Shown: positions 1-31,087 of the stretch, in pieces
Position numbering within the stretch: position 1 is the first letter of the stretch
Layout: every line of letters begins with the position of its first letter
From: Prochlorococcus sp. AG-436-J02
GTDB lineage: Bacteria; Cyanobacteriota; Cyanobacteriia; PCC-6307; Cyanobiaceae
Direction: 5' to 3'
Length of the DNA: 44,643 bases
NCBI GenBank assembly: GCA_003212625.1
Contig: QCPI01000007.1
Location: 1-44,643, forward strand
Translations under genes and position numbers: made by a program
The notes under the pieces: model-generated
The model's database searches: none
Told to the model about the DNA's origin: nothing
The model's input: the letters and a program-made list of their open reading frames with translations, nothing else

Positions 1-2
1 AT

Positions 3-308: not shown

Positions 309-354
309 GCTGATAAATTAATTTATAAATAGTTCAATACAAGCATAGATAGAC

Positions 355-492: not shown

Positions 493-533
493 ATACACCC
501 TCTAAAAGATACTTATAACTAAAGTTTCTTCCC

Positions 534-1327: not shown

Positions 1328-1411
1328 TGAGCCCTCACAAATATTTGAGACAAGAACACATCTTCTAAGGCAAACTGGCCTTACAACCTCAATCTTTCTA
1401 CACTAAGAACC

Positions 1412-2560: not shown

Positions 2561-2617
2561 TTATTAGCTTACGCTTATTATGTAAATCTAGCTTATATAG
2601 AATTAATTTAATAACTG

Positions 2618-4096: not shown

Positions 4097-4209
4097 TATT
4101 TTTCTCTTGGTTTAGACCACAAACTGTTCCTAATCAGAAGAACTTTGCAATAGTGATTATTTTGAGGAACAATTAAAGCTTAGGCTTAACCTACTTTCCA
4201 AAATCAATA

Positions 4210-5490
4210 GTGATAGATCAGAGGCTATTAAGAAACAATCCTGCTTTGATTCTAGAAGGGCTAAAATCAAGAGGAATGAGCATCGATTTAAGTCCCCTTC
4301 AAAAATACTGCAAAGATCTCAAAGACCTTGAAGAGAAAAGGAATATCCTTCAAGCGCAAAGTAACTCCATAGGAAGAGAGGTTGGACAAAAAATAAAACA
4401 AGGCTTAGATCAAAGTTCTAAAGAAATTTCAAATCTTCGAAGCAAAGGTAACCAATTAAAAAAGCAAGTTGGAGTAATCGAAGAAGAAGAAAAATTAATA
4501 ACAAAAAAACTAAATGATCAAATCCTATGCTTACCCAACCTTCCTGAAAAAGATTCTCTTATAGGAAAGAACGAAAAAGATAACAAAGAAATAAGAAGAT
4601 GGGGAGAGCCTTGTTCAAAAAATAATCATAAAGAACATTGGGAAATTGCTAATAAACTAAACCTCTGGGATAGTGAAAAGTCATCATTAATAGCTAAAAG
4701 TAGATTTGTAACCCTTTTCAACCAGGCGGCAAAACTAGAAAGATCCCTTATAAATTTCATGCTTGATTTACATGTTAAAAAAGGATATTTAGAAGTTCTT
4801 CCTCCAGCTCTTGTAAATACAGCGAGCCTTACTGGATCAGGTCAGCTTCCAAAATTTGCAGAAGAAAGTTTTCGATGCGCAGATGATGATTTATGGCTTA
4901 CTCCTACTGCTGAAGTCCCATTAACATCTCTTCATCGAGGTGAGATTATCCCTCATAATTTGCTCCCATTAAAATACGTTGCATATAGTCCTTGCTTCAG
5001 AAGAGAAGCAGGAAGTTATGGAAGAGATACTAGAGGCCTAATAAGACTTCATCAGTTCAATAAAGTTGAACTATATTGGTTTTCGAATCCAGAAAATTCT
5101 GAAGAAGCTTTAGAACAAATTACTTCTGATGCAGAATCTGTACTGCAAGAACTCGAACTCCCATATCGTGTAATTCAGCTTTGTACGGGAGATTTAGGTT
5201 TCTCTGCACAAAAAACTTATGATCTTGAGGTTTGGCTCCCAGGTGCTAATGCATTTAGGGAAATATCTAGTTGCAGCAATTGCGGAGACTTTCAAGCAAG
5301 ACGATCTTCAATACGAACAAAAGATAAAAATAAAAAGAATATCCTTTTGCACACCTTAAATGGAAGTGGACTTGCAATAGGTCGTACTATGGCTGCTATT
5401 TTGGAGAACGGTCAACAATCTGATGGAAGTATCAATTTACCAAAAGCCTTAATACCTTACTTCGGTTCGAACAAATTAAAGACAGAATAA
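4210..5490 (+). CDS. serS: Seryl-tRNA synthetase
   Basis: The 426-residue class II synthetase charges tRNA-Ser. It starts with GTG at 4210. The N-terminal 110 residues form the long antiparallel coiled coil that binds the tRNA variable arm. The catalytic domain carries 'TPTAEVPLTSLH' (about 237-248), motif 2 'CFRREAGSYGRDTRG' (about 261-275) and motif 3 'GSGLAIGRTMAAILEN' (about 392-407). Length and motifs are normal. It lies between the Ycf46-like gene and rseP, which begins 19 bp downstream. Confidence 0.97.
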   Translation: MIDQRLLRNNPALILEGLKSRGMSIDLSPLQKYCKDLKDLEEKRNILQAQSNSIGREVGQKIKQGLDQSSKEISNLRSKGNQLKKQVGVIEEEEKLITKKLNDQILCLPNLPEKDSLIGKNEKDNKEIRRWGEPCSKNNHKEHWEIANKLNLWDSEKSSLIAKSRFVTLFNQAAKLERSLINFMLDLHVKKGYLEVLPPALVNTASLTGSGQLPKFAEESFRCADDDLWLTPTAEVPLTSLHRGEIIPHNLLPLKYVAYSPCFRREAGSYGRDTRGLIRLHQFNKVELYWFSNPENSEEALEQITSDAESVLQELELPYRVIQLCTGDLGFSAQKTYDLEVWLPGANAFREISSCSNCGDFQARRSSIRTKDKNKKNILLHTLNGSGLAIGRTMAAILENGQQSDGSINLPKALIPYFGSNKLKTE

Positions 5491-5509
5491 CTCAATCAAA
5501 ATTTAATTA

Positions 5510-6592
5510 ATGAACGTTCTCTTATCCATAGCTGTTCTTGGCCTTCTAATTTTTTTTCATGAGTCTGGTCATTTTTTAGCAGCCGTACTCCAAAAAATTA
5601 AAGTCAGCGGATTTTCAATTGGTTTTGGACCAGCTCTATTGAAAAAGGAAATAAATGGAATTACTTATTCACTTAGGGCTCTTCCTTTAGGGGGATTCGT
5701 CTCTTTCCCCGATGAAGAAACAGATTCACTTGTTAAAGCCAATGACCCTGATCTTTTAAAAAATAGACCAATTCACCAAAGAGCAATAGTTATTTCAGCA
5801 GGTGTGATAGCAAACCTATTATTGGCTTGGGTAGTACTTATTGGTCAAGCAAGCTTGGTAGGGATCCCCAATCAGCCCGAGCCTGGGGTGATAATTATGG
5901 GGATTCAGCCAGATGAGCCTGCTTTTAAATCAGGCTTAGTTGCTGGTGATCGAATAATGAGCGTAAACGGAGAAAGCTTAGGTAGCGGGAAAGAGGGGAT
6001 AATGAACCTAGTCAATATTATTCAGAGCTCATCCGGGAAAGAACTACTTTTCGAGAGAGTTAATGAAGATGAAAGTAATACAGTTTCTATAACACCTGCT
6101 GATAAGGAAGGTAATGGAAGGATAGGAGCTCAATTACAACCAAATCTTCCAAATGAAGTATCTAAAGCAAAAAATATTAGTGAAATACTCAATAGTTCAA
6201 ATACACAATTTTATGAATTACTAAGTAGGACAGTTATTGGCTACAAAAGCTTGATTACTAATTTCTCTTCAACTGCTCAACAATTAAGTGGCCCAGTGAA
6301 GATTGTTGAAATTGGTGCGCAACTTTCAGAACAAGGTGGATCAGGACTTGTACTTTTTTCTGCATTAGTTTCAATTAATCTTGCAGTTCTCAACTCATTA
6401 CCTTTACCACTTCTAGATGGTGGTCAACTGGTTCTGCTTATTTTAGAAAGTATCCGTGGAAAGCCAGTTCCTGAAAAAATTCAATTAGCTTTTATGCAAT
6501 CAGGGTTTGTTTTGCTTGTAGGTCTAAGTGTGGTTTTGATAATTCGTGATACGACACAACTCTCTTTGGTTCAGCAATTGGTTAACAAATAA
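5510..6592 (+). CDS. rseP: Site-2 intramembrane zinc metalloprotease (RseP-like)
   Basis: The 360-residue membrane protease cleaves transmembrane substrates such as anti-sigma factors. Helix 1 contains the zinc-binding HExxH motif (HESGH, residues 17-21). A single PDZ domain follows (about residues 125-200, 'AFKSGLVAGDRIMSVNGE'). The second catalytic motif is 'LPLPLLDGGQ' (about 296-305), supplying the third zinc ligand Asp. A last membrane helix closes the protein. One PDZ domain, rather than the two of E. coli RseP, is the usual cyanobacterial form. It starts 19 bp after serS. Confidence 0.95.
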   Translation: MNVLLSIAVLGLLIFFHESGHFLAAVLQKIKVSGFSIGFGPALLKKEINGITYSLRALPLGGFVSFPDEETDSLVKANDPDLLKNRPIHQRAIVISAGVIANLLLAWVVLIGQASLVGIPNQPEPGVIIMGIQPDEPAFKSGLVAGDRIMSVNGESLGSGKEGIMNLVNIIQSSSGKELLFERVNEDESNTVSITPADKEGNGRIGAQLQPNLPNEVSKAKNISEILNSSNTQFYELLSRTVIGYKSLITNFSSTAQQLSGPVKIVEIGAQLSEQGGSGLVLFSALVSINLAVLNSLPLPLLDGGQLVLLILESIRGKPVPEKIQLAFMQSGFVLLVGLSVVLIIRDTTQLSLVQQLVNK

Positions 6593-6718
6593 TAATCCTT
6601 AGAATCAAGGGCATTCTTTAAATGTCGAACGATATTTTGAAAATAAATTCCAATTAATGTCTTAAACAATCATGCCAGGAGTTAAAATGTAATCCAAATA
6701 AGTCAAATAAGCCCATTA

Positions 6719-7021
6719 ATGGCCAAAAAGTCAATGATAGCGCGTGATGTAAAGCGCAAAAAACTCGTAGAAAGATACGCAGAGAAGCGTAAAACTCTTA
6801 TTGATGCTTTTAAAGCAGCCAAAGATCCTATGGAAAGATTAGAAATCCATAGAAAAATTCAAGCTTTACCTAGAAATTGCGCACCAAATAGAGTTAGGAA
6901 TCGTTGTTGGGCGACTGGGAAACCAAGAGGAGTTTATAGAGATTTTGGTCTTTGCAGAAATCAACTAAGAGCTAGAGCTCATAATGGAGAATTACCTGGA
7001 GTTGTAAAATCAAGCTGGTAA
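6719..7021 (+). CDS. rpsN: 30S ribosomal protein S14
   Basis: The 100-residue basic protein of the small subunit head has the C-terminal S14 signature '[25 protein letters not shown]' in two parts (residues about 60-84). It is the long, zinc-free form (C-minus type) usual in cyanobacteria; the CxxC zinc motifs of the short form are absent. Here it stands outside the main ribosomal operon, between rseP and pnp, and ends at a clear intrinsic terminator. Confidence 0.97.
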
Positions 7022-7051
7022 AAACTAACAGTCAATTCAATTACTCTAAGA

Positions 7052-7082
7052 AGTGGGAAATATTAAATATCCCGCTTTTTTT
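7052..7082 (+). terminator. Intrinsic terminator after rpsN
   Basis: An imperfect GC-containing stem (AGTGGGA pairing with TCCCGCT, with a further AT portion inside) is followed directly by a run of seven T. It sits 30 bp after the rpsN stop. The hairpin plus U-tract makes it the clearest rho-independent terminator in the window. Confidence 0.8.
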
Positions 7083-7113
7083 GTATTTTTCTCATTTTAG
7101 TAATTCTGGTAAA

Positions 7114-7146
7114 TGTTTCCTCTAGGAAACAAATCTATCGAGATTT
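7114..7146 (+). promoter_or_regulatory. Two tandem hairpins in the rpsN-pnp spacer
   Basis: Two perfect short hairpins abut, sharing only the A at 7131: TGTTTCC-TCTA-GGAAACA (7114-7131) and AAATCT-ATCG-AGATTT (7131-7146). They lie 60-92 bp before the GTG of pnp. They may belong to the pnp 5' leader; in enterobacteria a pnp leader stem-loop mediates autoregulation, but that mechanism is not shown here. The second stem is followed by TT only, so it is a weak terminator candidate. Confidence 0.4.
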
Positions 7147-7205
7147 TTACTCAATTAGTCCCATTAAGTGTAAGAATGTCTAAAGACAAAAAGCTATAAA
7201 GTAAC

Positions 7206-9374
7206 GTGCAAGGTCAGACAAAATCCGTTTCCTTCGATGGTAGAGAGATAAAGCTCACTACAGGAAGATTTGCTCCACAGGCTGGTGGTTCAGTATTAAT
7301 TGAATGTGGGGACACCTCCGTTCTAGTAACAGCAACAAAATCGACTGGTCGAGAGGGGGTTGATTTCCTACCTTTGATGTGTGACTACGAAGAAAGACTT
7401 TATGCAGCAGGAAGGATCCCAGGCAGTTTCATGCGTCGTGAAGGTCGTCCACCAGAGAGAGCAACTTTAATTTCAAGACTAATTGATCGTCCAATGAGAC
7501 CCCTCTTCCCTGGTTGGATGAGAGACGACATTCAAATAGTTGCGACATGTCTCTCATTAGATGAAAGAGTTCCTGCAGATGTTCTGGCTGTAACAGGAGC
7601 TTCAATGGCAACATTAATAGCCGGTATCCCTTTCCAAGGTCCTATGGCAGCTGTTCGCGTGGGGCTTTTGGGAGATGATTTTGTTCTTAATCCAAGCTAT
7701 AGAGAAATCGAAAGAGGTGATCTTGACCTAGTTGTTGCTGGGACTCCTGATGGTGTTGTGATGGTTGAAGCTGGAGCCAATCAACTTTCAGAACAAGACG
7801 TAATTGAAGCTATTGATTTTGGCTATGAAGCTATTACTGAATTAATCAACGCACAGAAAGAAGTTTTAAAAGAATCAGGAATAAAACAAGAGATACCTGA
7901 TGCTCCTCAAGTTGATGACACAATCTCAAACTATCTAGATAAAAATTGTACAAAATCAATTAGTGAAGTTCTCAAAAACTTCGAGCAAACTAAAGAAGAA
8001 AGAGATAATAAGATTGAAGAAATCAAGATAAATATTTCCTCTAAAATAGATGGGCTAAAAGATGATAATGCTGTTAAAAAATCTCTTTCTTCAAATAGCA
8101 AACTTTTAGAAAATAGCTATAAAGCTTTAACCAAAAAGTTAATGAGAGATCAAATCATAAAGGAAGGGAAAAGAGTTGATGGAAGGGAATTAAATGAAGT
8201 CAGAGAAATTGATGCAGCCGCAGCTGTTTTACCCAACAGAGTTCATGGATCAGCTTTATTTCAAAGAGGTTTAACTCAAGTTCTTTCCACAGCAACATTG
8301 GGTACTCCAAGCGATGCCCAAGAGATGGACGATTTAAACCCTAATACTGACAAAACATATATCCATCACTACAATTTTCCGCCCTACTCAGTAGGAGAAA
8401 CACGACCAATGAGAACTCCTGGTAGAAGAGAAGTTGGTCATGGAGCTTTAGCCGAAAGAGCATTAATGCCAGTACTACCAGCAAAAGATACATTTCCTTA
8501 TGTTCTAAGAGTTGTAAGTGAAGTCTTAAGTTCAAATGGTTCAACTTCAATGGCTTCAGTATGTGGAAGCACTCTCGCACTAATGGATGCGGGAGTCCCA
8601 TTAAAAGCGCCTGTAGGTGGAGCTGCTATGGGATTAATCAAAGAAGGAAAAGAAGTCAAAATATTGACTGACATTCAGGGTATTGAAGACTTTCTGGGAG
8701 ATATGGATTTCAAAGTTGCAGGGACCGAAAAAGGAATTACAGCCTTACAAATGGACATGAAAATTACTGGTCTTCCAATTGAGACAATTGGAGAGGCTAT
8801 AAATCAAGCACTGCCAGCAAGAACACATATTCTAGGAAAAATGCTTGAGGCCATTGACACTCCCAAAGAAAATCTCTCCCCACATGCTCCTAGATTATTA
8901 AGCTTTAGAATTGACCCTGAACTTATTGGAACTGTTATAGGTCCAGGAGGAAGAACAATAAAAGGTATTACAGAAAGAACTAACACAAAAATAGATATTG
9001 AAGATGGAGGAATAGTTACTATTGCCTCTCATGACGGAGCTGCTGCAGAAGAAGCACAAAGAATTATTGAGGGTTTAACTAGAAAAGTTCATGAAGGTGA
9101 AATTTTCTCAGGCTCGATTACAAGAATCATACCAATTGGTGCATTTGTAGAAATTCTTCCAGGGAAAGAAGGAATGATACATATTTCTCAATTATCTGAA
9201 GCAAGAGTAGAAAAAGTTGAAGATGTTGTAAAAGTGGGTGATCAAGTAACTGTAAGGGTAAGAGAGATAGATAATCGTGGCCGTATTAATTTGACTTTAC
9301 GAGGAGTGCCTCAAAATGGCGGCATGAACAATTTTCCAGAACCAACCCCAACTCCAGTAGCTCCTTTAGTTTAA
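7206..9374 (+). CDS. pnp: Polyribonucleotide nucleotidyltransferase (PNPase)
   Basis: The 722-residue phosphorolytic 3'-5' exoribonuclease acts in RNA decay. It starts with GTG at 7206. Order of domains: first RNase PH core (about 1-225, with '[21 protein letters not shown]'-type RNA-binding region near 77-97), an α-helical linker (240-310), second RNase PH core with the active-site loop near '[10 protein letters not shown]' (about 497-506), KH domain ('[14 protein letters not shown]', about 577-590) and C-terminal S1 domain (about 634-705). Length and motifs are normal. It converges on cysQ with a 9 bp gap. Confidence 0.98.
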
Positions 9375-9383
9375 GTAAATTAA

Positions 9384-10298
9384 TTAGACTATATATTCTG
9401 GATCTTTTGCATAGAAAAATCTCATAACATTTTGGCAAATCTCTTTATGAGACTTGCCGTGACTTGCTATCAAGCATCCCTTTTGAGAAAAATCAAGTTC
9501 TTCATAATTTAATCTTTTCTCATTTGCATGTGTAAATAAGCCACCTGCTGCCTCAATAACTACCTGGGGTGCAGCCATATCCCAGTCCTTAGGTGCAGTT
9601 TTCCCCGAGAGAGAGATATATACATCTGATTCTCCCCTCAAAATCGAAGCGACCTTACATCCAATACTCCCAATATTTTTTGTTTGACCAAACTTAACTT
9701 CTTTAAGAAGATTTTGAAGTCTTACATCTATATGATTTTTACTTGAAACGAGAATTAATTTCGGAATTCCCTTTCTATTACTAAAAGATACTGACCTTTT
9801 AACACCTTTTCGATTCTCACACCATGCCCCGTTCCCAATAATGCCAAACCAAAGCTCATCTCTTTCTGGGATTAAAACCACTCCTAATAATGGATTTTTT
9901 TTATATGACAGAGCCAGATGAACAGAATAGTTTTCTAGTCCTTGAAGAAAATCTTTTGTGCCATCCAATGGATCTATTATCCATTGCCAATCTATTTTGT
10001 TTTGTGAAGTCTTAAAATTGATATCTTTAACAGATTCTTCGCTTAAAATATCCCATTGAACTTTTGGAAACTTTTGTTTTATTCCTGAAATCAATAAATC
10101 ATTAACAGCCATATCTGCAGCTGATACTGGCCCATCCCCTCCATCTTTTACACTTAATGCTTTTGGATAACCAAATGGAGGGTTTTCGCCTCTTGAATAA
10201 GCTAACAAAACATCAGCCGAGGCCCAACAAAGGTTCTTAATTTCATCTAACAAGTTCTCAATTTCAACATCTTTAGGTAAAACAAGATCAATTGACAT
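9384..10298 (-). CDS. cysQ: 3'(2'),5'-bisphosphate nucleotidase, CysQ family
   Basis: A lithium-sensitive type phosphatase of the inositol monophosphatase superfamily. It dephosphorylates PAP left over from sulfate assimilation. Signature motifs are 'WIIDPLDGTKDFLQG' (metal-binding D-P-x-D-G-T) and, near the C-terminus, 'DWDMAAPQVVIEAAGG'. I chose the ATG at 10298 (MSIDLVLP, 304 residues); an 8-residue longer frame starts at 10322 but would overlap the divergent rsmI. The two start codons are only 1 bp apart back to back, so each promoter must lie inside the other gene. Confidence 0.9.
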   Translation of the reverse strand: MSIDLVLPKDVEIENLLDEIKNLCWASADVLLAYSRGENPPFGYPKALSVKDGGDGPVSAADMAVNDLLISGIKQKFPKVQWDILSEESVKDINFKTSQNKIDWQWIIDPLDGTKDFLQGLENYSVHLALSYKKNPLLGVVLIPERDELWFGIIGNGAWCENRKGVKRSVSFSNRKGIPKLILVSSKNHIDVRLQNLLKEVKFGQTKNIGSIGCKVASILRGESDVYISLSGKTAPKDWDMAAPQVVIEAAGGLFTHANEKRLNYEELDFSQKGCLIASHGKSHKEICQNVMRFFYAKDPEYIV

Positions 10299-10299
10299 A

Positions 10300-11187
10300 A
10301 TGAATTTGATGGACGATAGCAAGCTTCCAGGAACTCGATTGGAACCTAAACCTGGAACTCTTTATATAGTAGGTACACCAATAGGCAACCTTGGAGATTT
10401 ATCAAACAGAGCAAAATCCCTACTTAAGGATATCTCTGTTATTGCCTGTGAAGATACTCGTAGAAGTAGTCAACTTTTAAAATTTATCAATTCAACAACT
10501 CCTCTTATTAGTTATCACAAACACAATTTAAAAAGCAGATTACCTCAAATCATAGAACTACTTAAAAAGAAAGAAAGCGTCGCATTAATTAGCGATGCTG
10601 GAATGCCAGGAATTAGTGATCCAGGAGAAGAACTTGTTCATTCTGCAAAATCAAATAATCTTGAAGTAATCTGCATCCCAGGTCCATGCGCGGCAACGAC
10701 AGCATTAGTAATTAGCGGATTACATTCTCGAAGATTTTGCTTTGAAGGATTTCTACCTAAAAAACAAAACGATAGAGATAAAATATTGAAAGTAATTGCT
10801 CAAGAAGAAAGAACAACGATAATTTATGAATCACCACACCAGCTAACAAAACTATTAGAGGAATTATCAGACAATTGTGGGGAAGAAAGACTAATTCAAG
10901 TTTCCAGAGAGCTTACAAAGAGATTCGAAGAATCAATAAGATCATCATTAAAAGAAGCCATAGAATTTTTCAAAATTAATAAACCAAAAGGAGAATTTAC
11001 AATTGTCCTTGAAGGAAAAAAAAAGAAAAAAGAATATTTGATAAGCAAGTCTGAAGCAATTAAAAAGCTTGAATGCTTAATTAAAGAAGGTCAAAGACCT
11101 AAAGATGCTGCTCAACAAATTGCTTCAGAAACCGGTTATACAAAAAATTGGCTTTATTCAGAATTACATAAAAAACTTGACAAATAA
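10300..11187 (+). CDS. rsmI: 16S rRNA (cytidine-1402 2'-O) methyltransferase
   Basis: The 295-residue SAM-dependent tetrapyrrole-methylase-fold enzyme methylates the ribose of C1402 in the decoding centre. Motifs are 'LYIVGTPIGNLGDLS' (about 22-36), 'VIACEDTRRS' (about 48-57), 'SDAGMPGISDPG' (about 99-110) and 'PGPCAATTALV' (about 127-137). The start could also be the ATG at 10309. It is transcribed divergently from cysQ with almost no spacer. Length is normal for the family. Confidence 0.95.
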   Translation: MNLMDDSKLPGTRLEPKPGTLYIVGTPIGNLGDLSNRAKSLLKDISVIACEDTRRSSQLLKFINSTTPLISYHKHNLKSRLPQIIELLKKKESVALISDAGMPGISDPGEELVHSAKSNNLEVICIPGPCAATTALVISGLHSRRFCFEGFLPKKQNDRDKILKVIAQEERTTIIYESPHQLTKLLEELSDNCGEERLIQVSRELTKRFEESIRSSLKEAIEFFKINKPKGEFTIVLEGKKKKKEYLISKSEAIKKLECLIKEGQRPKDAAQQIASETGYTKNWLYSELHKKLDK

Positions 11188-11245
11188 TTATTCCTAATTA
11201 AATCTAGGATAAATTATATTTATTTTTAAAAAATAAAATTAAAAC

Positions 11246-11476
11246 ATGTTTTTAAAAATAAAACTCCTATCCATTAGCATTTTTACTGGTGCATTATTAA
11301 TTTTATTTCTCTGTCTTGGTTCACAAAATATAAAAACTCGTTATAGCTTGAATCTATTATTAGTTGATACAGTCAAATTACCTGCTGGCTTTTTAGTTGG
11401 CTCATCTTTTATTATTGGTTTTCTTGGGGGTAGTACAACAGCAATATTATTAACAAATTCAGAAATCAATAAATGA
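11246..11476 (+). CDS. Small two-helix membrane protein (LapA/DUF1049-like)
   Basis: A 76-residue protein with two clear membrane helices (about residues 7-27 and 46-69) and a short polar loop. The layout and the 'PAGFLVGSSFIIGFLGG' second helix recall the LapA/DUF1049 family, which in E. coli helps control LPS assembly, but similarity is weak and only the topology is secure. It lies 58 bp downstream of rsmI. The position just before a surface-glycan island is suggestive, not proof. Confidence 0.6.
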   Translation: MFLKIKLLSISIFTGALLILFLCLGSQNIKTRYSLNLLLVDTVKLPAGFLVGSSFIIGFLGGSTTAILLTNSEINK

Positions 11477-11488
11477 GGATAATTCAAT

Positions 11489-12202
11489 TTACTTACTATC
11501 CAAAGCAATTATCGAATCATCAATAATTAATCTTGTAATTCCTTTACCAAGTAAATAAGATTTTGATAAATTGAAAATATTAGTATCAGGTATTTTTATT
11601 ACCCTTTGAGTTTTTAAACAGCTACGTTTTGCTGAACGCTGGGTTGAGAACAATAAAATTGCTCTATTTTTTAACTCATCATCAGGGAGAAAGCTCCACT
11701 CAGGGAACTCAGAAATAAGCTTAGATTCTAGTTCGACTTTCTTATCAACTATCATGAAAACACTTTCTGGCAAACTAACATTATCAAGAACAGTAATTTC
11801 ACATTTATTTTTATCTGTTTCAAAATCAAAAGAAGACTCTAATGGTTCTATTTCTTGAAAACAATCAAATGTATCAATTTTATTTAAGTCCTCAGATTTA
11901 GATTGTGTTAATGAATCATCCATTACCTTAGGAATATCAGCTTCTAATTCAACTGATACAGAATCATCTGCTTTATTTAAAATATCCTTGGGTTGAGAAT
12001 CATCTAAATTAGAATCAACTTCTTTTTTGCTTCTAGCTTTTAGTAATTTAAATTCTTCATCAGTAATTAAAGATTTAATAATTCTACTTATAGTACTTGA
12101 TCTGCAATTAAAACGCTCTGCTAGATTTTGGAAAGTATCACCAGAACGGAAACCTTCTAATATTTCGATTTTATTAGTTTTGGTCAACCTTCTTGAAATC
12201 AT
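11489..12202 (-). CDS. Hypothetical protein with N-terminal helix-turn-helix
   Basis: A 237-residue protein. Residues about 5-50 look like a helix-turn-helix ('EILEGFRSGDTFQNLAERF' then 'STISRIIKSL'), similar to HTH units of resolvases and transposases. Residues 60-135 are acidic and low in complexity, probably a linker. The C-terminal 85 residues form a second compact region with 'WSFLPDDELKNRAILLFSTQ'. I recall such proteins as conserved among marine picocyanobacteria without known function. It converges on the small membrane gene and marks the start of the island. A DNA-binding regulator is plausible. Confidence 0.65.
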   Translation of the reverse strand: MISRRLTKTNKIEILEGFRSGDTFQNLAERFNCRSSTISRIIKSLITDEEFKLLKARSKKEVDSNLDDSQPKDILNKADDSVSVELEADIPKVMDDSLTQSKSEDLNKIDTFDCFQEIEPLESSFDFETDKNKCEITVLDNVSLPESVFMIVDKKVELESKLISEFPEWSFLPDDELKNRAILLFSTQRSAKRSCLKTQRVIKIPDTNIFNLSKSYLLGKGITRLIIDDSIIALDSK

Positions 12203-12451
12203 TTTTATATTTAAATTCTATTAGAAGAATAATATGGAATATCCTCTATTAGTAAGAAATATACTTAAATTTCCAAAATGAAATTAATTTTCATGCACTA
12301 TTTAAAATATATAGTTTTTTTGATAAATTTATTAAAGCTAAGCATAATCTAATATTCACATTCCTCTAGACAAATATCTAAATCTGAGGTCTCAGCAGGA
12401 AAAATGCTTTTTAAAAAGTGGTTAGAACAATATTAAAAGTAAAAAAAATAC

Positions 12452-13405
12452 TTATCGTTTAATTTTAAAAAGTAATCTAGTTGTACAATCGTAATATATA
12501 AAGGATAACAACAGTTGGATACAGATAACTGACAAAATCGTAAAAAGACTAGCTGATCCAGCCGAAGTTAAAACTCCGGTTATATTGCTTTTATATACTG
12601 AACTTAAACCTATTATTAAAGCCAATAAACCAGTAAAGAAGAAAAGAATTAGATCTATTGAACCTTGATTAAAATCAAGAATATAATATTGATAAAAAAT
12701 TCTCTTAAAAAGAACTTTTATATGTTTTATTAAAAAGATAGGAAATTGATATAATGGATTTAAAGATGAGAAGTTATTACTATAGTTAACGTCAATAGAG
12801 ACATTCTTGATGAAAATATTTTTCAAAGAGCATCTAAATAGTAAATCCGTCTCAAAAAAGAATCTATTATCAGTTTTATATAAATCAATATTTTTAAGCA
12901 CCTCAGATTTAAAAGCTATAAATCCATTTGTAGGATCAAATAAATCCCAGTATCCAGTAGTCAATTTAGTAATGTAACTAAGAAGTGCATTACCTATTAA
13001 CCTGATTTTTGGCATCTGAAGTAACTGTTCTAAATCAGTAAAACGATTTCCTTTAGTAGCTTCACACTCATTATTGATCAATGGCCTTACAAATTTTGGG
13101 ATATCTTTTGGATCCATTTGCCCATCAGCATCAATTTTTAATATTATTTTGCATCCTTGACCAAGTAGCCAATAAAAACCTTTCTTAGTAGAACCTCCAA
13201 CTCCCATATTAGATTTATTATAAATAATATGTAATTTAGAACTATTGATTTGAGATCTCAAAGCCTTACCAGTTTTAAGCGGGCATGCATCGTCTACAAA
13301 AACGATAGAATCAGCAAACTCGATACAATCTTTAACCACTTGAATAGCTTTTTCCCCACCCATGAAGCAGGGGATAGCAACACCAATCTTAATATCATTA
13401 TCCAT
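12452..13405 (-). CDS. GT2 glycosyltransferase with C-terminal membrane helices (GtrB/DPM1-like)
   Basis: About 317 residues. The N-terminal GT-A fold shows 'GVAIPCFMGGEKAIQVV', 'VDDACPLKTG' and the metal-binding 'KIDADGQMDP'. Two hydrophobic helices occupy about the last 80 residues. This matches polyprenyl-phosphate sugar transferases (GtrB, DPM1), which make lipid-linked sugar donors for periplasmic transferases. I prefer the ATG at 13405; a TTG at 13423 would overlap the stop of the upstream membrane protein by 3 nt. It probably forms an operon with that gene and, with GtrA at 15454, a three-part decoration system. Confidence 0.8.
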   Translation of the reverse strand: MDNDIKIGVAIPCFMGGEKAIQVVKDCIEFADSIVFVDDACPLKTGKALRSQINSSKLHIIYNKSNMGVGGSTKKGFYWLLGQGCKIILKIDADGQMDPKDIPKFVRPLINNECEATKGNRFTDLEQLLQMPKIRLIGNALLSYITKLTTGYWDLFDPTNGFIAFKSEVLKNIDLYKTDNRFFFETDLLFRCSLKNIFIKNVSIDVNYSNNFSSLNPLYQFPIFLIKHIKVLFKRIFYQYYILDFNQGSIDLILFFFTGLLALIIGLSSVYKSNITGVLTSAGSASLFTILSVICIQLLLSFIYYDCTTRLLFKIKR

Positions 13406-13419
13406 TAATAAAAAGTCAT

Positions 13420-14670
13420 TCAAATTTTTAAGTGTCTACAGAATATTAACTCATCTATTGTTTTAGCAGCAAATATTAAAAATGGACTATAAAACATAAT
13501 TAAATACCTAGCCATTGCTACACCAAGCAGGCTAGGGGAGACAGCAATAAATGAGGCAATAAGTATGATATATAGATTATTATTAATCAAAGATCTTATA
13601 TTCATTAAAATTCCAATAAAGCTTAATAAGTTAATTGGATAGAGTATAAAAAGACCTGTCACTACTCGTATTAAAAAAGGGCCTACCTGATATATATTAA
13701 ATGCATTATGTGTATCTCTTAAATCTGAAATACCTGAGACAAAATCGGATAATTTCCAAAGTATATAATATAAAAACATTTTAGATCTATAGATAATGCT
13801 TCCAGAGGAAAAGTCTAATTTATCTCTTAGTAAATCTCTTGAATAACCGAAAAATTCACCTCCTTCATTGGAGAAATATGAGATATGTGCTATAGAATAA
13901 TTTATTGAATCATTTAAATTATATATACAAATTAATATGGCTATTAAATTAATAAACAAAGAAATAGTATTTATTTTATTATTTGTTCCTGAAATAATAA
14001 GATGCCTAAACAATAGATAGGAACAGAGAACTAAAATTGTCAAACTAAATAATATAGCTGTAGGTCTAAGGCAGGATAAATATATACAAGCTAGAGCTAA
14101 AAATAAAGAGTTTAATGCATTTTTCTGATTAAGTAATCCATTATTAATGGTAATCATTTTTGAGAATATAAATAGAACAAGTGCTACTCCAATAATTACG
14201 TAATTAGTTACCCCCCCTGAAAGAGAGTAAAAATATGTATAAGGGTTAATTATATATAATAGTGAAGTTATTTTCGCAACCCTTTCATTGAAGAGTGTAT
14301 AAGAAGATATCCTTAATAAGAATAATGTAATAATGGAAAAGATAGAAGTAGAAGAAATAGCAATGAAATTCCATATTTGTGAATATTGATCCTCTCCAAA
14401 AACTTGACTTATATATGTGAAAATTTTAAGTATATATGGATAAAGAAAATTTCCGTTAAATGTCTCATAACCAAAACCAAGATTACTATCATTAATATAA
14501 AAACCTCTATCTCCTATTGATAACAAATCGGATGAAATACCAATAGGGGTTTTATCAGTAGGAATATTATGGAAAAAACTATAAATAAACAACGCAAAAA
14601 TAATCAAACAATAAAATATTTCTAGACTAAATTTTTTCGCAAACCTCATCCTTTGAGAAGTAAAGTACAT
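13420..14670 (-). CDS. Polytopic membrane protein, probable GT-C type glycosyltransferase
   Basis: A 416-residue protein with roughly ten hydrophobic segments and little soluble sequence, except a first periplasmic loop (residues about 35-85) with acidic residues ('SSDLLSIGDRGFYINDSN') as in GT-C enzymes that use lipid-linked sugars. It resembles no single family I can name with confidence. Its partner downstream is the GtrB-like GT2, which supports a role as the final transferase of a Gtr-like set. A transporter or polymerase cannot be excluded. Coding is very AT-rich. Confidence 0.6.
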   Translation of the reverse strand: MYFTSQRMRFAKKFSLEIFYCLIIFALFIYSFFHNIPTDKTPIGISSDLLSIGDRGFYINDSNLGFGYETFNGNFLYPYILKIFTYISQVFGEDQYSQIWNFIAISSTSIFSIITLFLLRISSYTLFNERVAKITSLLYIINPYTYFYSLSGGVTNYVIIGVALVLFIFSKMITINNGLLNQKNALNSLFLALACIYLSCLRPTAILFSLTILVLCSYLLFRHLIISGTNNKINTISLFINLIAILICIYNLNDSINYSIAHISYFSNEGGEFFGYSRDLLRDKLDFSSGSIIYRSKMFLYYILWKLSDFVSGISDLRDTHNAFNIYQVGPFLIRVVTGLFILYPINLLSFIGILMNIRSLINNNLYIILIASFIAVSPSLLGVAMARYLIMFYSPFLIFAAKTIDELIFCRHLKI

Positions 14671-25279: not shown

Positions 25280-26404
25280 TTATTTAAAGAACTTTTCATA
25301 AGCTTCTATATGCTTTTCAATAACATGTTTGATATTAAATTTCTTTTCTGCATATTCTCTAGCCTCCCTTCCCATTTTGATACATAATTCCTTTGAATTT
25401 AATAATTTGTTGATCGCAACCACAAGTGACTCAGTATCTTTTGTTGGAATCAATATGCCAGAACGATTTGGTATTATTGCGTCTCTACAACCTGGATGAT
25501 CTGTAGTAATTACTGGCCTACCACAAGCGGCTGCCTCGATTAGTATTTTAGGTAGACCTTCACCATAAAAAGACGGTAAAACAACCATTGTTGACTTGGA
25601 AATCAGCTTTTGAATGTTAATTTCAAATCCACAATATTCTCCAAAGCCTGATACTTCCCAATCTCTAATAGTTTGCATATCAATAGAATCTGGATTTTCC
25701 TGGTCAATCTTACCTGCAACTAAAAAGCGTGAACTATCAACTAACATAGACGCCTTTATAAATTCTAAAATACCTTTTGAGACTAATAATCTAGAAGCAA
25801 AAAGTACAATAGGTTTTCCTGCTGGTATATTTGAAAATGAATATTCCTGAAGATCAATACCAGAACCTGGAATCAATATCACTTTAGAATCTTTTAATTT
25901 ACAAAAGCTTTTAATCATATTAATATCTTCTTGGTTTTGAAATATTACTTTTAAATTAGTTTTAGTAAAAGAAAAAGTATAAAGTAGTTTAACCAATATT
26001 AAGCGTAATTTAGCAATATTACCTTTAGAAATAAAAACATAGCCTAGGCCTGAAATCGAAGCTACAAAATTAATCTTAGGGTAAAAACGTGAAATAAAAC
26101 CAGCTAACAAAACAGGCTTTATAGTAATGGCATGAATTATATCTGGCTTAATAGAATTTATTAAAACAAACATAAAAAAAAATGCATTAGCCAATCTAAA
26201 AGGATTAGGACTCGATCTGGCTATTGGTAAATCATGCAAATATAAACCTTGAGAAGTTAGAAATTTTGCCTTAGTTGTTATTTTTGTAGCAAGGTGAACT
26301 TCATAACCATTATCAATTGCTGCTAATGCAATAGGCAAGCGATGAGAAACAAAGAACCAATCAGTATTAACTATAAACAATATTTTTTTTCTATTTTCAT
26401 ACAT
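25280..26404 (-). CDS. GT4 glycosyltransferase, WbpJ/PglA-like
   Basis: The 374-residue GT-B enzyme begins 'ILFIVNTDWFFVSHRLPIA', with 'ASISGLGYVF' in the acceptor half. The nucleotide-sugar half has 'VLFASRLLVSKGILEFI' and 'SFYGEGLPKILIEAAACGRP', ending in the E-x7-E motif (EGLPKILIEA). The N-terminus resembles HexNAc transferases that act on undecaprenyl-PP-HexNAc (WbpJ, PglA). With the WbpL-like gene just downstream, it likely adds the second sugar. Confidence 0.88.
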   Translation of the reverse strand: MYENRKKILFIVNTDWFFVSHRLPIALAAIDNGYEVHLATKITTKAKFLTSQGLYLHDLPIARSSPNPFRLANAFFFMFVLINSIKPDIIHAITIKPVLLAGFISRFYPKINFVASISGLGYVFISKGNIAKLRLILVKLLYTFSFTKTNLKVIFQNQEDINMIKSFCKLKDSKVILIPGSGIDLQEYSFSNIPAGKPIVLFASRLLVSKGILEFIKASMLVDSSRFLVAGKIDQENPDSIDMQTIRDWEVSGFGEYCGFEINIQKLISKSTMVVLPSFYGEGLPKILIEAAACGRPVITTDHPGCRDAIIPNRSGILIPTKDTESLVVAINKLLNSKELCIKMGREAREYAEKKFNIKHVIEKHIEAYEKFFK

Positions 26405-26482: not shown

Positions 26483-27202
26483 CTATTCGCATAAATCAGA
26501 AACTCTATTTAGAGATAATATCTCCTTGTTAGAAGCAATAGGTAAACCTTGAACTTTACAGCCTTCTTTAATTAAATGCTTTATAATATATAAAAATCCA
26601 TGTTCCCCACTTCTTTTACCATACTTATTTGATAGATTCTTTTTTAATAATGTAAAAACTCTACTTTTATTAAAAATGAATAGACCGATATCTCTTTCCC
26701 CTCTTATAGGCTTTTCACCTTCTTCTCTCGTCTCTTTTACATCTACAATTTCACCGAAAGAATCTCTTATAACTAGGGTATAGGCGGAATCAACCATTTT
26801 AGTCACAAAAGTAAAAATATTCTTATTCTTATTATGCTCATATATCATTTTTAATAGTGTTTTACTTTCAATAAACGGAATATCTCCCCAAAGCAATAAT
26901 AAATTTTCTGTCTCCTTATATGCAGGAGAATTCTGATATTGAAGGACTGCATTTCCCATCCCTTTAGCATCTTCTTGTACTACTATATAGGCCTTTAATT
27001 GATATTGTTTAAGAAAATCATAAATATGATCTTCACCTTCAGGACTGACAATTATTGTTGGGCATGAGTCAATGGGCTTAATCAGTTCAAAAATTCTCAA
27101 AAGAATTGGCTTACCCTTAACCTTATACAAAGTCTTAGGATAAGAAAGTTTTGCTCTCGTCCCTTTACCAGCTGCAGGTATTAATACTCTAGTATTTTTC
27201 AA
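26483..27202 (-). CDS. Sugar nucleotidyltransferase, GlmU-N-terminal-like
   Basis: About 239 residues. 'LIPAAGKGTRAKLSYPKTLYKV' (split across residues 6-27) is the nucleotide-binding G-x-G-T-R / P-K signature, 'LLLLWGDIPFI' carries the metal-binding Asp, and 'GERDIGLFIFNKSRVF' and 'SLNRVSDL' recall the GlmU uridyltransferase domain. The acetyltransferase β-helix of GlmU is absent. It has only TTG starts (27202 chosen; 27217 possible), overlapping the upstream GT2. It probably makes an NDP-sugar or NDP-polyol for the cluster; substrate unknown. Confidence 0.75.
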   Translation of the reverse strand: MKNTRVLIPAAGKGTRAKLSYPKTLYKVKGKPILLRIFELIKPIDSCPTIIVSPEGEDHIYDFLKQYQLKAYIVVQEDAKGMGNAVLQYQNSPAYKETENLLLLWGDIPFIESKTLLKMIYEHNKNKNIFTFVTKMVDSAYTLVIRDSFGEIVDVKETREEGEKPIRGERDIGLFIFNKSRVFTLLKKNLSNKYGKRSGEHGFLYIIKHLIKEGCKVQGLPIASNKEILSLNRVSDLCE

Positions 27203-28109
27203 AATGATCAATACCAATTTTACCTTTAAATCCTCTTATAATAGCTAGATAAAATATACCATTATTAAAACCTAATATTAGTCTAAGACCATAGATAATC
27301 CCATTTCTTTTAATGCTCCTATATAAAACTACTAGCAACGCTAAAAAAGATCTTAATAAAGGATAGTCATAATATTTCTTATTTAATATCAATGTATTTT
27401 TGATATAATAATAAATCTTAAAAGAATTATAAGGTCTTTTACTAACATCTGGATGAAAATGTATTGCCTTAATGACCGAAATAACATCTCCTACTTTTCT
27501 TAGCCTAAAAAGATAATCAAGTTCATCTCCAAACATAAAATAATTTTTATTCACATTACCTATTTCCTTGATTGATTTGATAGAAATCAAGGCTCCATTA
27601 AAAAAATGTGCAAAAGGATAAGTATTATTTATAGAAATATCAATTAAATCATTAATATTAAAGACTTTCCTAGGTATAGAGAAGATAATAGGAAATAAGT
27701 TTTTATTTAATATTGGATAAGGAAAAACAAAGCTCTCTGCATTGTTTTCCTTTACAACAATAGATGATGCACATGAAACATTACCATGCATAACTTTTAT
27801 CAACTCGGAGTAAGCATTAATATCTGGATATCCATCATCATCCATTAGCCATACTGCATCAAAATTATTATCTATAGCATATTCAATTCCCCTAGCCCAT
27901 CCCCCAGCAGAACCTACGTTATCTTGACATATATTATTAATATTCATTTTATTTAGCGTCTCTGCTGTATTATCTGTACTATTATTATTTATAACTAATA
28001 TATCATCGGGCTTAACAGTTTGTTCTTTGATATTGTTTAAGCATCTTACCAACAGATCACATCGATTAAAAGTAACAACAATTACTAATGTTTTCAAACT
28101 ATTATTCAT
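27189..28109 (-). CDS. GT2 glycosyltransferase
   Basis: A 306-residue GT-A enzyme: 'VIVVTFNRCDLLVRCLNNI', 'ILVINNNSTDNTAE', 'NVGSAGGWARGIEYA' and 'AVWLMDDDGYPD'. The 'NxGGAGG' block and D-D-D-G are typical of the rhamnosyl/galactofuranosyl branch of GT2. It overlaps the upstream HAD gene by 8 nt and the downstream nucleotidyltransferase by about 14 nt, so the three are probably translated together. The donor sugar is unknown. Confidence 0.85.
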   Translation of the reverse strand: MNNSLKTLVIVVTFNRCDLLVRCLNNIKEQTVKPDDILVINNNSTDNTAETLNKMNINNICQDNVGSAGGWARGIEYAIDNNFDAVWLMDDDGYPDINAYSELIKVMHGNVSCASSIVVKENNAESFVFPYPILNKNLFPIIFSIPRKVFNINDLIDISINNTYPFAHFFNGALISIKSIKEIGNVNKNYFMFGDELDYLFRLRKVGDVISVIKAIHFHPDVSKRPYNSFKIYYYIKNTLILNKKYYDYPLLRSFLALLVVLYRSIKRNGIIYGLRLILGFNNGIFYLAIIRGFKGKIGIDHFEKY

Positions 28110-28713
28110 TGAGATACAATTTATTCAATAATTTACTAAAAGAAAGTATTCTAACATCAATAAAGTCTATTTTGGATAGCTTAGCAGCTTTTATACCGGA
28201 ATCAGAATCCTCAAAGATAAGTGCATTTTTTGCTTCAAAGCCAGTTATATTTAATACTTTAAAAAATATTTCGGGATTAGGCTTTGCCAAAGAGACATCA
28301 TCAGAACATATAATATGTTCAAACAGTTCAAAATAACCTAATTTCTCTAAACCTAAAATAATATTAGATCTTGAACCAGAACTTGCTATACATAATTTAA
28401 ACTTATTTTTCGACCAATTCAAGAATTCATCTACTCCATTTATTGGTTTTAAATTTTTTACTATTAATTTTTTCATAATAGTTTGCTTATTATTTGATAA
28501 AACATTTAATTTATTGTCTGACGGATAAATATCATTTTTATTTAGAATATATTTGATGGCATCGTATGTTTTCATTCCAGCTATATCATAATAATTAAAT
28601 TTAATATTAAAGGGATTTAAGATCTCTAAGAAAGCATTCTCATGCAAAGGAGATGAATCAGCCAAAGTCCCATCATAATCAAAAATCAGAAGATCCTTAT
28701 CTAAGATATTCAT
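28102..28713 (-). CDS. HAD-family phosphatase or phosphomutase (β-PGM-like)
   Basis: The 203-residue HAD hydrolase has motif I 'LIFDYDGTLADSSPLH' (nucleophile and acid/base Asp), motif II in 'CIASSGSRSNI', Lys in 'SLAKPNPEIFF' and motif IV 'ALIFEDSDSGIKAAK'. The α-helical cap after motif I places it in the β-phosphoglucomutase / phosphoglycolate phosphatase branch. It lies 19 bp after the CofD/YvcK-like gene and overlaps the GT2. It may supply a sugar-1-phosphate or dephosphorylate an intermediate of the same path. Confidence 0.88.
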   Translation of the reverse strand: MNILDKDLLIFDYDGTLADSSPLHENAFLEILNPFNIKFNYYDIAGMKTYDAIKYILNKNDIYPSDNKLNVLSNNKQTIMKKLIVKNLKPINGVDEFLNWSKNKFKLCIASSGSRSNIILGLEKLGYFELFEHIICSDDVSLAKPNPEIFFKVLNITGFEAKNALIFEDSDSGIKAAKLSKIDFIDVRILSFSKLLNKLYLNE

Positions 28714-28732: not shown

Positions 28733-29959
28733 TTAATTACATATTGTTAGGGCACGTTGATTGTATAATTCAAGTATTTTAGATATAACCTTTAAACCAT
28801 CATGCTTACCAGGAAATTTAGTAGATTCAAAATTTTCTAATAATAATCTTACAGGAAGATCGTTAAGGACTTCTTCATCAAATTTGACATAGGTCTCGTC
28901 ATTTTTTAAATTGCTTTTATTAATTAAGTTAAAATCAAAAAATTCATCCATTTGATATTTTCTATTGTCTGACAAACTTAAATAACGATAGGCACCTAGA
29001 ATATAATCAGAGGCTTTGTAAGTAGGAGTCTCATAATCGGCTCCAATGTTAGTAATAAAGACCTTTAATGCATTCTTGTTATCAGCAATACTTTCAGCTA
29101 AACCAGATGATAAATACGAAGGATACAAAGAAGAATGCTGAGTTCCAGGAGCATAAATAATAATATTTGAGTGTTTTATTGCATCTATGACGGAACTTGA
29201 GACAGGCACATTGCAATGATGGCTATTTAGATAGTAACGTTTTTGATCAATACTTAATTTCTCGAATCGTGACTTGTTAACTGTTTTATCTATTAAAAAA
29301 ATCCTTTCAATTTTTACATTAGAACGTAATTCTACTATTTCAGATTCAGAATATAACATCTCCCCATTAGCCCTAAGAGCAACTAAGTTTTTATTTTCAT
29401 TACTTGTTGCAAGCACATGCCCCCTCAAGCCAAATAATTGTCCCAAGAAAAGAGTAGCTTGCTCGAGGTCGCGTTTAAAATATATATATGCCCCTGCGTA
29501 TATACAATTCATTATTGAGCAATCAGAGAAATTAAATTTAATCTGATTTAAATCTTCAATAGACTTAATAAAATCAAGAAAACACCTTAGAAAAACTTTT
29601 ATATTTATTCTTATTCGTTCGGAAGCTAATTTTAAATCTATTAATTCGTTATCAAAACCACAAACAAAATTTTGTATTTTCTTAACAGCTTCTTTATTAG
29701 AACAGTTAAGAGGAAATCTATATCTAAAAAGCTTTAGTATTTCTGAATAAAGTGTTGATTCTTGGGGTAACATTAATTCTTGAACTTTTCGAATATCCGA
29801 GGGGCCAAGCATATGAAAAAACCGCCGAATTTCCCCAGTAGATTTTCCATCATCATATGCATTTACAATTGAAGTAACATGTAAATCAGTTTGCCGAATC
29901 AAATCAGGTATTATTGAAGATGCACCTCTTCCACCATTAATAACAGCTATATTAAGCAT
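28733..29959 (-). CDS. Divergent CofD/YvcK-family protein in a surface-glycan cluster
   Basis: The 408-residue protein aligns by eye with the CofD/YvcK (UPF0052) fold: 'VINGGRGASSIIPDLI' for the usual GGGTG, 'AYDDGKSTGEIRRFF' for DDGGSSGRLR, 'GPSDIRK' for GDIRN, 'GQLFGLRGHVLATSNEN' for the central part, and 'IIIYAPGTQHSSLYPS' for GPGSLYTS. CofD transfers a 2-phospholactyl group in F420 synthesis; B. subtilis YvcK binds UDP-sugars and affects cell shape. Several near-invariant positions differ, so a new substrate is likely. Neighbours are a HAD phosphatase and, two genes on, a nucleotidyltransferase, which suggests a joint route. The function is inferred. Confidence 0.75.
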   Translation of the reverse strand: MLNIAVINGGRGASSIIPDLIRQTDLHVTSIVNAYDDGKSTGEIRRFFHMLGPSDIRKVQELMLPQESTLYSEILKLFRYRFPLNCSNKEAVKKIQNFVCGFDNELIDLKLASERIRINIKVFLRCFLDFIKSIEDLNQIKFNFSDCSIMNCIYAGAYIYFKRDLEQATLFLGQLFGLRGHVLATSNENKNLVALRANGEMLYSESEIVELRSNVKIERIFLIDKTVNKSRFEKLSIDQKRYYLNSHHCNVPVSSSVIDAIKHSNIIIYAPGTQHSSLYPSYLSSGLAESIADNKNALKVFITNIGADYETPTYKASDYILGAYRYLSLSDNRKYQMDEFFDFNLINKSNLKNDETYVKFDEEVLNDLPVRLLLENFESTKFPGKHDGLKVISKILELYNQRALTICN

Positions 29960-30022: not shown

Positions 30023-31087
30023 TTACATGAAAAGATAGTTTTTATAAGGTAGCCAAAATTCCTGAGCATAATCTGAATTAGTAAGCCAATAAAATGTAAA
30101 AACACATGTCATTGAAATTATAATCAACTTCCATACATTTCTAGATAAATTAAAAATTCTATATTGAACACATCTTATATATACAAATATTGATAAGGGA
30201 TAAAGATAAAAAGACATTCTATCTATTGCCGTACTTTGATTAGGAAATAACGCAGTGAGTAAAAAACACAATATAACTAGAAGAGAAAAAATATTATAAA
30301 GTGAGAATTCATAGAATTTATTATTACTATAAAATTTATCTTTGTTTAATTGAAAAATAACTGCAGCTATAAAAACGTAACCTACTCTCATAATGGCACC
30401 TCTGGAAGAGTATGTACCCGATAATATATAAGCATTAAGCAAATCTGATATGAAGACCCCATAAAATTGGCTTACAATATAGATAATGGGTAAAGTTATT
30501 AATATAATTTTTAGTAAGTTTTTTATTTTAGTTAAATCTTTCATCCTTGCTAATATTGGTATTGGCACTATAAAAAGCATACTTTGATGAAATGTGGCAC
30601 CAAATATAAAATAGAAGATAGATCGATAAAAATACTTTAGATTTGATAAAGCGAGTAATTCAAATCCTAAACTTATAGACTGTCGCGTATTAGTAAAGGA
30701 ACAGATAAGAATGAGAGTTGGATATGCTATCAAAAGAGAAAGCCATGGATAAGCTTGCCTTCTACAATAATGAAGTAATCCGACAACAAATAATATTGCA
30801 GAAACTGAATTTAAGAGTATAAAATTTTCCCCTAGCCTATTTGCAATAAATTCTAATACTTGATAACTTAATTCAAAACTTATAGAAAAAATTTCAGAAA
30901 ATGATCTATCTTCCATAGACAACATTCGTGATAAATATATAATCCAATCTGTACCCATCTCATATCTAAATCCTATAAATATCACCAAAATCAATGACAA
31001 AAATAGAATATCAATTAAATATAATTTTTGTCTATCAGATATTGCTAGTATTGATATCAAAGAAAAAATTAATATATATATAAGCAT
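30023..31087 (-). CDS. EpsG-family membrane protein, probable repeat-unit polymerase
   Basis: A 354-residue protein with about ten helices. 'GFRYEMGTDWIIYLSRM' in the first periplasmic part, 'FTNTRQSISLGFELLAL' and 'FGATFHQSMLFIVPI' are the marks of the EpsG family, which fills the Wzy-like polymerase role in exopolysaccharide and O-antigen clusters. No other polymerase is visible in the island. It lies between the AsnB-type gene and the CofD/YvcK-like gene on the same strand. Confidence 0.85.
   Translation of the reverse strand: MLIYILIFSLISILAISDRQKLYLIDILFLSLILVIFIGFRYEMGTDWIIYLSRMLSMEDRSFSEIFSISFELSYQVLEFIANRLGENFILLNSVSAILFVVGLLHYCRRQAYPWLSLLIAYPTLILICSFTNTRQSISLGFELLALSNLKYFYRSIFYFIFGATFHQSMLFIVPIPILARMKDLTKIKNLLKIILITLPIIYIVSQFYGVFISDLLNAYILSGTYSSRGAIMRVGYVFIAAVIFQLNKDKFYSNNKFYEFSLYNIFSLLVILCFLLTALFPNQSTAIDRMSFYLYPLSIFVYIRCVQYRIFNLSRNVWKLIIISMTCVFTFYWLTNSDYAQEFWLPYKNYLFM

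Follow-up and report, generated by a model that had tools for sequence, protein, structure and literature searches.

A YvcK-like protein associated with HAD, GlmU-like nucleotidyltransferase and glycosyltransferase genes in bacterial glycan islands and giant-phage loci: a probable sugar-donor cassette

Introduction

True CofD carries out the transfer of a phospho-linked group, and the routes to NDP-heptoses follow a kinase, HAD phosphatase and nucleotidyltransferase logic. In Bacillus subtilis YvcK the binding of UDP-GlcNAc is nearly abolished when the residues Y265 and R301 are lost (PMC5482804), and Listeria GlmR converts UTP and GlcNAc-1-P to UDP-GlcNAc, a uridyltransferase activity that falls about 100-fold upon the joint mutation of D40, D41 and N198 (PMC10128056). 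Phage-borne sugar-activation genes that serve modified DNA bases have been reported for the arabinosylation of RB69 and for the pentose of Thanatos (PMC12838424).

Here we analyze a CofD/YvcK-superfamily protein encoded on a 44,643-nucleotide contig (QCPI01000007.1, the whole of which is referred to as the window) from the small, 54% complete genome assembly of the cyanobacterium Prochlorococcus sp. AG-436-J02, for which gene calls are ORF-based. A preliminary description of the window had proposed that this protein, together with a HAD enzyme and a nucleotidyltransferase (NTase), transfers an unusual phospho-linked group to a glycan, or else senses UDP-sugars.

Results

A four-gene run within a surface-glycan island

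The CofD-like gene leads a run of four genes, which are listed here with the two adjoining glycan genes:

30023..31087, minus strand: EpsG-like (Wzy-type) polymerase of the glycan context (PF14897, E 4e-42)
28733..29959, minus strand: CofD/YvcK-superfamily protein, ATG start, 408 aa, lead gene of the four-gene run (PF01933, E 1.3e-31)
28102..28713, minus strand: HAD hydrolase of phosphomutase type with a C1 cap, beta-PGM/YqaB-like, 203 aa (PF13419, E 7e-31)
27189..28109, minus strand: GT2 glycosyltransferase, 306 aa (PF00535, E 3e-17), nearest to GlfT1 galactofuranosyltransferase models
26483..27217, minus strand: GlmU-N/MobA-like NTase, about 244 aa from a listed TTG start, the real start perhaps lying slightly downstream (PF12804, E 4e-14)
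25280..26404, minus strand: GT4 glycosyltransferase of the island (PF00534, E 3e-24)

The run proceeds leftward from the CofD-like gene across a 19-base gap to the HAD gene and on to the GT2 and NTase genes, with slight overlaps at the HAD/GT2 and GT2/NTase junctions, and the HAD, NTase and glycosyltransferase (GT) genes all fall within 7 kb (26483-28713). These coordinates and Pfam matches confirm the arrangement first described, a leftward run with a GlmU-like NTase, a HAD enzyme and a GT2 inside an O-antigen array. Against curated models, the HAD scores 104 bits for the NCBIfam beta-PGM family (cut-off 153), the GT2 scores 90 bits for the GlfT1-type model NF050113 (cut-off 330) and the NTase, whose PDB matches are exclusively GlmU, scores 94 bits for the GlmU model TIGR01173 (cut-off 367).

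The surroundings are an O-antigen-type, standard heteropolysaccharide island (window 15124-42664) that encodes Wzz with an adjoining epimerase, a UDP-sugar dehydrogenase, an ABC transporter, asparagine-synthase-like, EpsG-like, GT4, WecA-like and GT2 proteins, an RmlA-type NTP_transferase, three further epimerase/dehydratase proteins and a DegT protein. Flanked by tRNA-Arg and tRNA-Ala genes and poorer in GC (about 0.26-0.31) than the contig's left end (0.36-0.37), it resembles the known Prochlorococcus islands.

The CofD-like protein has a YvcK-like fold and belongs to a separate clade

The profile search assigned the protein to PF01933 (CofD) and to no other family, with a match that spans residues 4-373 of the 408-aa ORF at 110 bits (gathering cut-off 30). 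This score and the YvcK-like fold described below bear out the family membership first suggested, and the four motif variants that had been quoted as deviating at key positions (INGGRGASS, AYDDGKSTG, PSDIRK and APGTQHSS) are all present in the translation. The protein reaches 99.4 bits with the YvcK/GlmR model TIGR01826 (cut-off 196) and 109.8 bits with the GAK-CofD model TIGR04357 (cut-off 340), the latter being still its top NCBIfam model by bits. When the PDB was searched with a profile of 70 relatives, YvcK structures were matched with E values of 3e-38 to 7e-31, whereas the F420 CofD appeared only as 3c3d (E 0.0076 over 30 residues). The AlphaFold (AF2) model (mean pLDDT 96.9, pTM 0.94) gave the same order in Foldseek: YvcK/GlmR structures came first (2o2z and 2hzb, TM to target 0.85-0.87), followed by CofD and FbiA (about 0.6), and the predicted model of the cassette protein thus has the YvcK fold.

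Orthologues of the protein share 43-65% identity across their full length. A tree of 49 sequences, which has some long branches and in which the finer branching order is uncertain, places 42 cassette sequences in a single group (support 100/100), separate from the cyanobacterial YvcK, from a rhizobial relative and from the GAK member, which itself groups with a further relative not belonging to the cassette clade. Support for the close clade (14 rows) is 100/99, and the viral CofD-like sequences cluster together, with one cyanobacterial plasmid gene nested among them. The sub-cut-off scores and the separate clade sustain the divergence from both CofD and YvcK that had been noted at the outset. 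The nested plasmid gene is an orphan on Acaryochloris marina plasmid pREC4 (L022:11983-13080), where it lacks the cassette. Two rhizobial plasmids (L023, L024) carry CofD-superfamily genes of another branch together with inositol-monophosphatase, other phosphatases and ABC transporters.

A strict-E search of genomes for direct relatives in the genus and phylum returned none; a contig-level genome scan found the nearest CofD-like proteins in four other Prochlorococcus single-cell genomes or MAGs. Three cassette-bearing Prochlorococcus genomes other than that of the window also encode a canonical YvcK (~360 bits, against ~95 for the cassette protein), so that the CofD-like protein is an additional one. 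A plain YvcK duplicate is excluded by this coexistence, the sub-cut-off scores and the separate clade, and the CofD of the F420 route is excluded by the comparisons of sequence and fold. Judged by sequence, the window protein is neither YvcK, GAK-CofD nor F420 CofD, since its scores reach at most about half of the curated cut-offs and it lies in its own clade.

Active-site residues are conserved in all three core proteins

In an alignment of 68 family sequences, residues G9, G10, G12, D36, G38, T41, G42, R45, S54, D55, R57 and K58, as well as R81, N151, G272, T273, S277 and N304, are invariant, which indicates that the motif variants are not random drift. The cassette-family motifs NxYD[DN]GxSTG, LGPSDxRK and GTxxSSLxP are all found in the window protein and are near-invariant across the 68 sequences. 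The phosphate-binding core of YvcK is kept, N304 corresponding to N217 of the B. halodurans protein. Of the residues implicated in GlmR activity, D40 corresponds to the invariant D36, D41 to D37 (D in 50/68 and N in 18/68) and N198, as mapped by numbering, to S281 in the window protein, Ser instead of Asn. The UDP-GlcNAc contacts Y265 and R301 of B. subtilis YvcK are replaced by S349 and K385. In the HAD the nucleophile Asp, the acid/base Asp, the Lys, the Glu-Asp pair and the cap His/Lys are conserved in 60/60 sequences, and the core Gly, Arg, Lys, Asp and Tyr residues of the NTase in 89/89. From these residues, all three proteins look catalytic.

The neighborhood recurs across bacterial phyla

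A single scan of 84,980 species genomes, with patterns drawn from the CofD-like protein only so that neighbors were not selected for, returned 172 relatives, the best 80 of which were kept as loci. These best 80 of 172 come from Cyanobacteria, alpha-, beta- and gammaproteobacteria, Geobacteraceae, Bdellovibrionota, Magnetococcales, Bacteroidota, Acidobacteriota, Verrucomicrobiota, Actinomycetota, Synergistota, Melainabacteria and Clostridia. Among 75 non-redundant bacterial loci, the 7-kb neighborhood holds an NTase in 66/75, a HAD in 59/75, a GT2-type glycosyltransferase (by broad profiles) in 71/75 and all three in 54/75. The association with glycan genes is therefore conserved among the homologues. 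Of the nine loci without an NTase, six are roughly 2 kb or less from the end of their contig, and two belong to Clostridia. The HAD is absent despite ample flank from L066, L074, L094, L103 and L105, and either a housekeeping HAD serves there or the HAD step is optional. The NTase, HAD and GT2 profiles found no match in a small, taxonomically narrow set of 24 control loci (19 Cyanobiaceae YvcK loci and five PF01933 loci from cassette-bearing genomes).

The usual order in the close clade is GT4, CofD-like, HAD, GT2 and NTase, from which the window departs only in its GT4; the HAD orthologue lies immediately downstream of the CofD-like gene in most close loci, and a gene of the broad GT4 family is a frequent flank of the cassette elsewhere. 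Compared with another Prochlorococcus, identities are 59% for the window NTase (orthologue in L048), 52% for the HAD and 55% for the GT2; compared with betaproteobacterial, Accumulibacter and Geomonas counterparts they are mostly 40-51%, and the GT2 shares 46-55% identity with cassette orthologues from other phyla.

Some loci carry other genes. In three Clostridium/Lachnotalea loci (L078, L079 and L080, about 1-14000) inspection showed the CofD-like and HAD genes beside polyketide-synthesis-like genes, with an HxHxQ-motif protein in the place of the NTase and an MGT-like glycosyltransferase in 2/3, possibly representing a natural-product sugar route. The upstream clostridial gene was considered as a HIT/GalT-type NTase and set aside, the HxHxQ motif being the sole hint (no family match; model pLDDT 30). 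Wide-clade loci L089, L091, L093, L107 and L125 encode a methyltransferase-like protein and a radical SAM protein that weakly matches a B12-binding domain, and the Magnetococcales among them a large, GT-C-like membrane protein; these proteins possibly modify or use the cassette sugar.

Fusions and correlated distances join the core parts

Natural fusions cover all pairs of core parts. The CofD-like protein is fused to the HAD in 34/36 viral loci; HAD and NTase are fused in viral locus L160 (446 aa), where the CofD-like protein is separate (339 aa); and the CofD-NTase fusion of L123:6284-8560 has an apparent truncated HAD motif (VIFDVDQTLLD) between its domains. Glycosyltransferases take part as well, in a 934-aa NTase-CofD-GT2 fusion (L098) and in the fusion of CofD to GT2 in 36/42 wide-clade bacterial loci, with the reversed order GT2-CofD in L111. 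Pairwise distances of the partners are strongly correlated: Mantel r is 0.887 for the CofD-like protein and NTase (82 loci, against a maximum of 0.156 in 999 permutations) and 0.818 for the CofD-like protein and HAD (55 loci), with values of 0.70 and 0.84, respectively, in the close clade alone. Taken with the partner identities, these correlations make the cassette appear to travel as a unit. The CofD-like protein is functionally linked to the HAD, the NTase and the GT, and the association with HAD and NTase that had been suspected from a single locus recurs across phyla, in fused and co-varying form. A chance neighborhood is ruled out by the recurrence in 75 loci, the co-variation and the partner-free control loci.

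Giant phages carry the same core beside DNA-modification genes

Two alignment-based scans of IMG/VR yielded 36 non-redundant viral loci on contigs of up to 429 kb, their viral assignment being drawn from the IMG/VR classification, the length of the contigs and the DNA-modification genes. A single-protein viral scan with the CofD-like query found nothing, as did a search of a viral structure library with the same protein. The deposited sequence of an uncultured phage (LR756500, 462 kb) shows an arrangement identical to that of the IMG/VR loci. An NTase lies near the CofD-like gene in 34/36 loci, and the phage-fused HAD is of the C2, PMM-like type with all catalytic motifs present, whereas the bacterial HAD is of the C1 type. 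The glycosyltransferase is a relative of T4 beta-glucosyltransferase (BGT) in 28/36 loci (PF09198, E 1e-20; PHROG 7922, E 7e-53) and a TET-associated glycosyltransferase (TAGT, PF20691) in 4/36, all of them without T4 BGT, so that one or the other is present in 32/36. Thymidylate-synthase-like and dNMP-kinase-like genes each occur in 22/36 loci, and dUTPase and dCMP deaminase in some. By its predicted functions this gene set is the content of DNA-base hypermodification with glycosylation. Among the gene clusters tested, no sugar-modifying gene, whether for an epimerase, a dehydratase or another enzyme, was recurrent, and the three domains thus seem enough to turn a host metabolite into a donor.

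Loci L027-L047 and L128-L167 additionally contain guanylate kinase and MazG-like genes and are apparently an undescribed DNA-glycosylation island. Plasmid and phage records yielded only distant relatives plus one uncultured phage, and no cultured phage with known DNA chemistry. Four small records labeled "Listeria phage" (OR848159.1, OR848133.1, OR846781.1 and OR846774.1) encode a segment similar to residues 1-80 of YvcK/GlmR and are thus suggestive of bacterial chromosome fragments filed as phage.

Discussion

We propose, with a probability of roughly 0.7, that the CofD-like protein acts as an enzyme together with the HAD and NTase, and that this three-enzyme cassette supplies the adjacent GT with an unusual donor, a nucleotide-activated sugar or sugar-like compound. 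On the simplest ordering of steps, the CofD-like protein would apply its superfamily's phosphotransfer chemistry to a common sugar phosphate, which it phosphorylates or re-phosphorylates; the HAD would strip or shift a phosphate to give a sugar-1-phosphate; and the NTase would activate this product, from which the GT could then transfer the sugar. In Prochlorococcus the sugar would go to the O-antigen-type surface glycan and in giant phages probably to a hydroxymethylated DNA base. Both the NDP-sugar product and the order of steps are suggested by genomic context, and the specific version of the CofD-like reaction that passes through a bisphosphate is, taken alone, possible but somewhat doubtful.

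The GT differs between loci (GlfT1-like GT2, DPM1-like GT2, T4-BGT, TAGT and, by inspection, the clostridial MGT-like protein) while the CofD-like protein, HAD and NTase stay constant, the pattern expected of a donor-making cassette that serves varied acceptors. We also count in favor of the donor route that two HAD cap classes fill one role (C1 in bacteria, C2/PMM-like in phages). Against a simple linear route, it is the GT and not the NTase to which the CofD-like protein is fused in the 36 wide-clade loci. The five well-flanked loci that lack a HAD also count against the proposed route. NDP-sugars can arise from mutases and an NTase alone, and hence the need for the CofD-like step is read only from its conservation.

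The phospho-linked transfer first proposed would follow CofC/CofD logic: the NTase would make an NDP-linked X, the CofD-like protein would pass phospho-X to a hydroxyl of the glycan or base, forming a phosphodiester and releasing NMP, and the HAD would trim a phosphate. This matches the chemistry of true CofD and the near-constant NTase, and a CofD-like step placed after activation and before transfer would agree with the NTase-CofD-GT2 order of L098 and with the numerous CofD-GT2 fusions. However, the protein is closer to YvcK/GlmR than to CofD/FbiA (E 3e-38 vs 0.0076; TM to target 0.86 vs 0.64), a point on which the structure prediction called for by the preliminary description agrees, and the near-constant GT is left unexplained. 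An activated-sugar route accommodates that GT no less well, and we regard phospho-X transfer as rather unlikely.

The other early suggestion was a sensor: like YvcK, the protein would bind the product of the pathway and thereby regulate the HAD, NTase or GT. Enzymes often carry small fused binding domains, and the nearest characterized relatives, YvcK/GlmR, bind UDP-GlcNAc (PMC5482804). This suggestion is weakened by the replacement of the UDP-sugar contacts Y265/R301 by S349/K385, by the invariant acceptor-side motifs and intact active-site core, which suit catalysis, and by the fusion to three different enzymes and the retention of the CofD-like protein by phages as one of three core domains, so that a sensor is less likely than the catalytic donor route and improbable overall. 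A GlmR-like second nucleotidyltransferase making an NDP-sugar from NTP and sugar-1-phosphate, with the GlmU-like protein acting on another substrate, has a precedent in Listeria GlmR (PMC10128056) and retains D40 and D41 as D36 and D37 (D/N), but with Ser281 at the N198 position and a dedicated GlmU-like enzyme already in the cassette it is very improbable.

We more tentatively entertain, at somewhat less than even odds, the broader view that this CofD/YvcK branch performs a new sugar-activating phosphotransfer and that the cassette, moved as a unit, feeds the same kind of unusual sugar to hypermodified giant-phage DNA as to bacterial surface glycans. The donor route, if right, would give a function to a large, so far unassigned branch of the superfamily, extend the short list of known sugar-activating enzyme types and predict an undescribed bacterial surface sugar. 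It would also provide a testable account of the source from which giant phages draw a non-host sugar to modify their DNA, a modification that could shield them from host nucleases, and YvcK-like catalysis would become testable in a setting with known partners. The cassette was not described in any of 5.4 million open papers searched for CofD/YvcK/UPF0052 with a glycan or phage context, a corpus with subscription papers mostly outside it; the cassette is widespread and apparently undescribed, and the novelty for surface-glycan clusters that had been supposed apparently holds within that literature.

Comparison with known systems

The phage loci share with RB69 and Thanatos a phage-encoded sugar supply for DNA glycosylation and differ in the enzymes, those reported being others (TH1_060 and TH1_063) in a paper from which YvcK is absent (PMC12838424). 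The GAK-system CofD-like protein (TIGR04357) gives the highest NCBIfam score (110 bits), yet the window protein falls far under the cut-off of 340 and the GAK member lies outside the cassette clade. With CofD/FbiA of the F420 route the cassette protein has in common the PF01933 superfamily and a partner NTase, as CofC serves CofD; it differs in a weak profile match, a TM of about 0.6 and partners that are a HAD and a GT in place of F420 genes. The likeness to YvcK/GlmR (UPF0052) is greater and includes the fold, the GGxG loop, the DDG motif and N304 (B. halodurans N217), whereas the cassette protein has NxYD[DN]GxSTG, LGPSDxRK and GTQxSSLxPxY in place of the YvcK motifs, scores below the TIGR01826 cut-off, forms a separate clade and has lost the Y265/R301 contacts. 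Finally, the proposed logic of phosphorylation, dephosphorylation, activation and transfer is that of the NDP-heptose routes, with the difference that the cassette has no sugar kinase and the CofD-like protein takes that slot.
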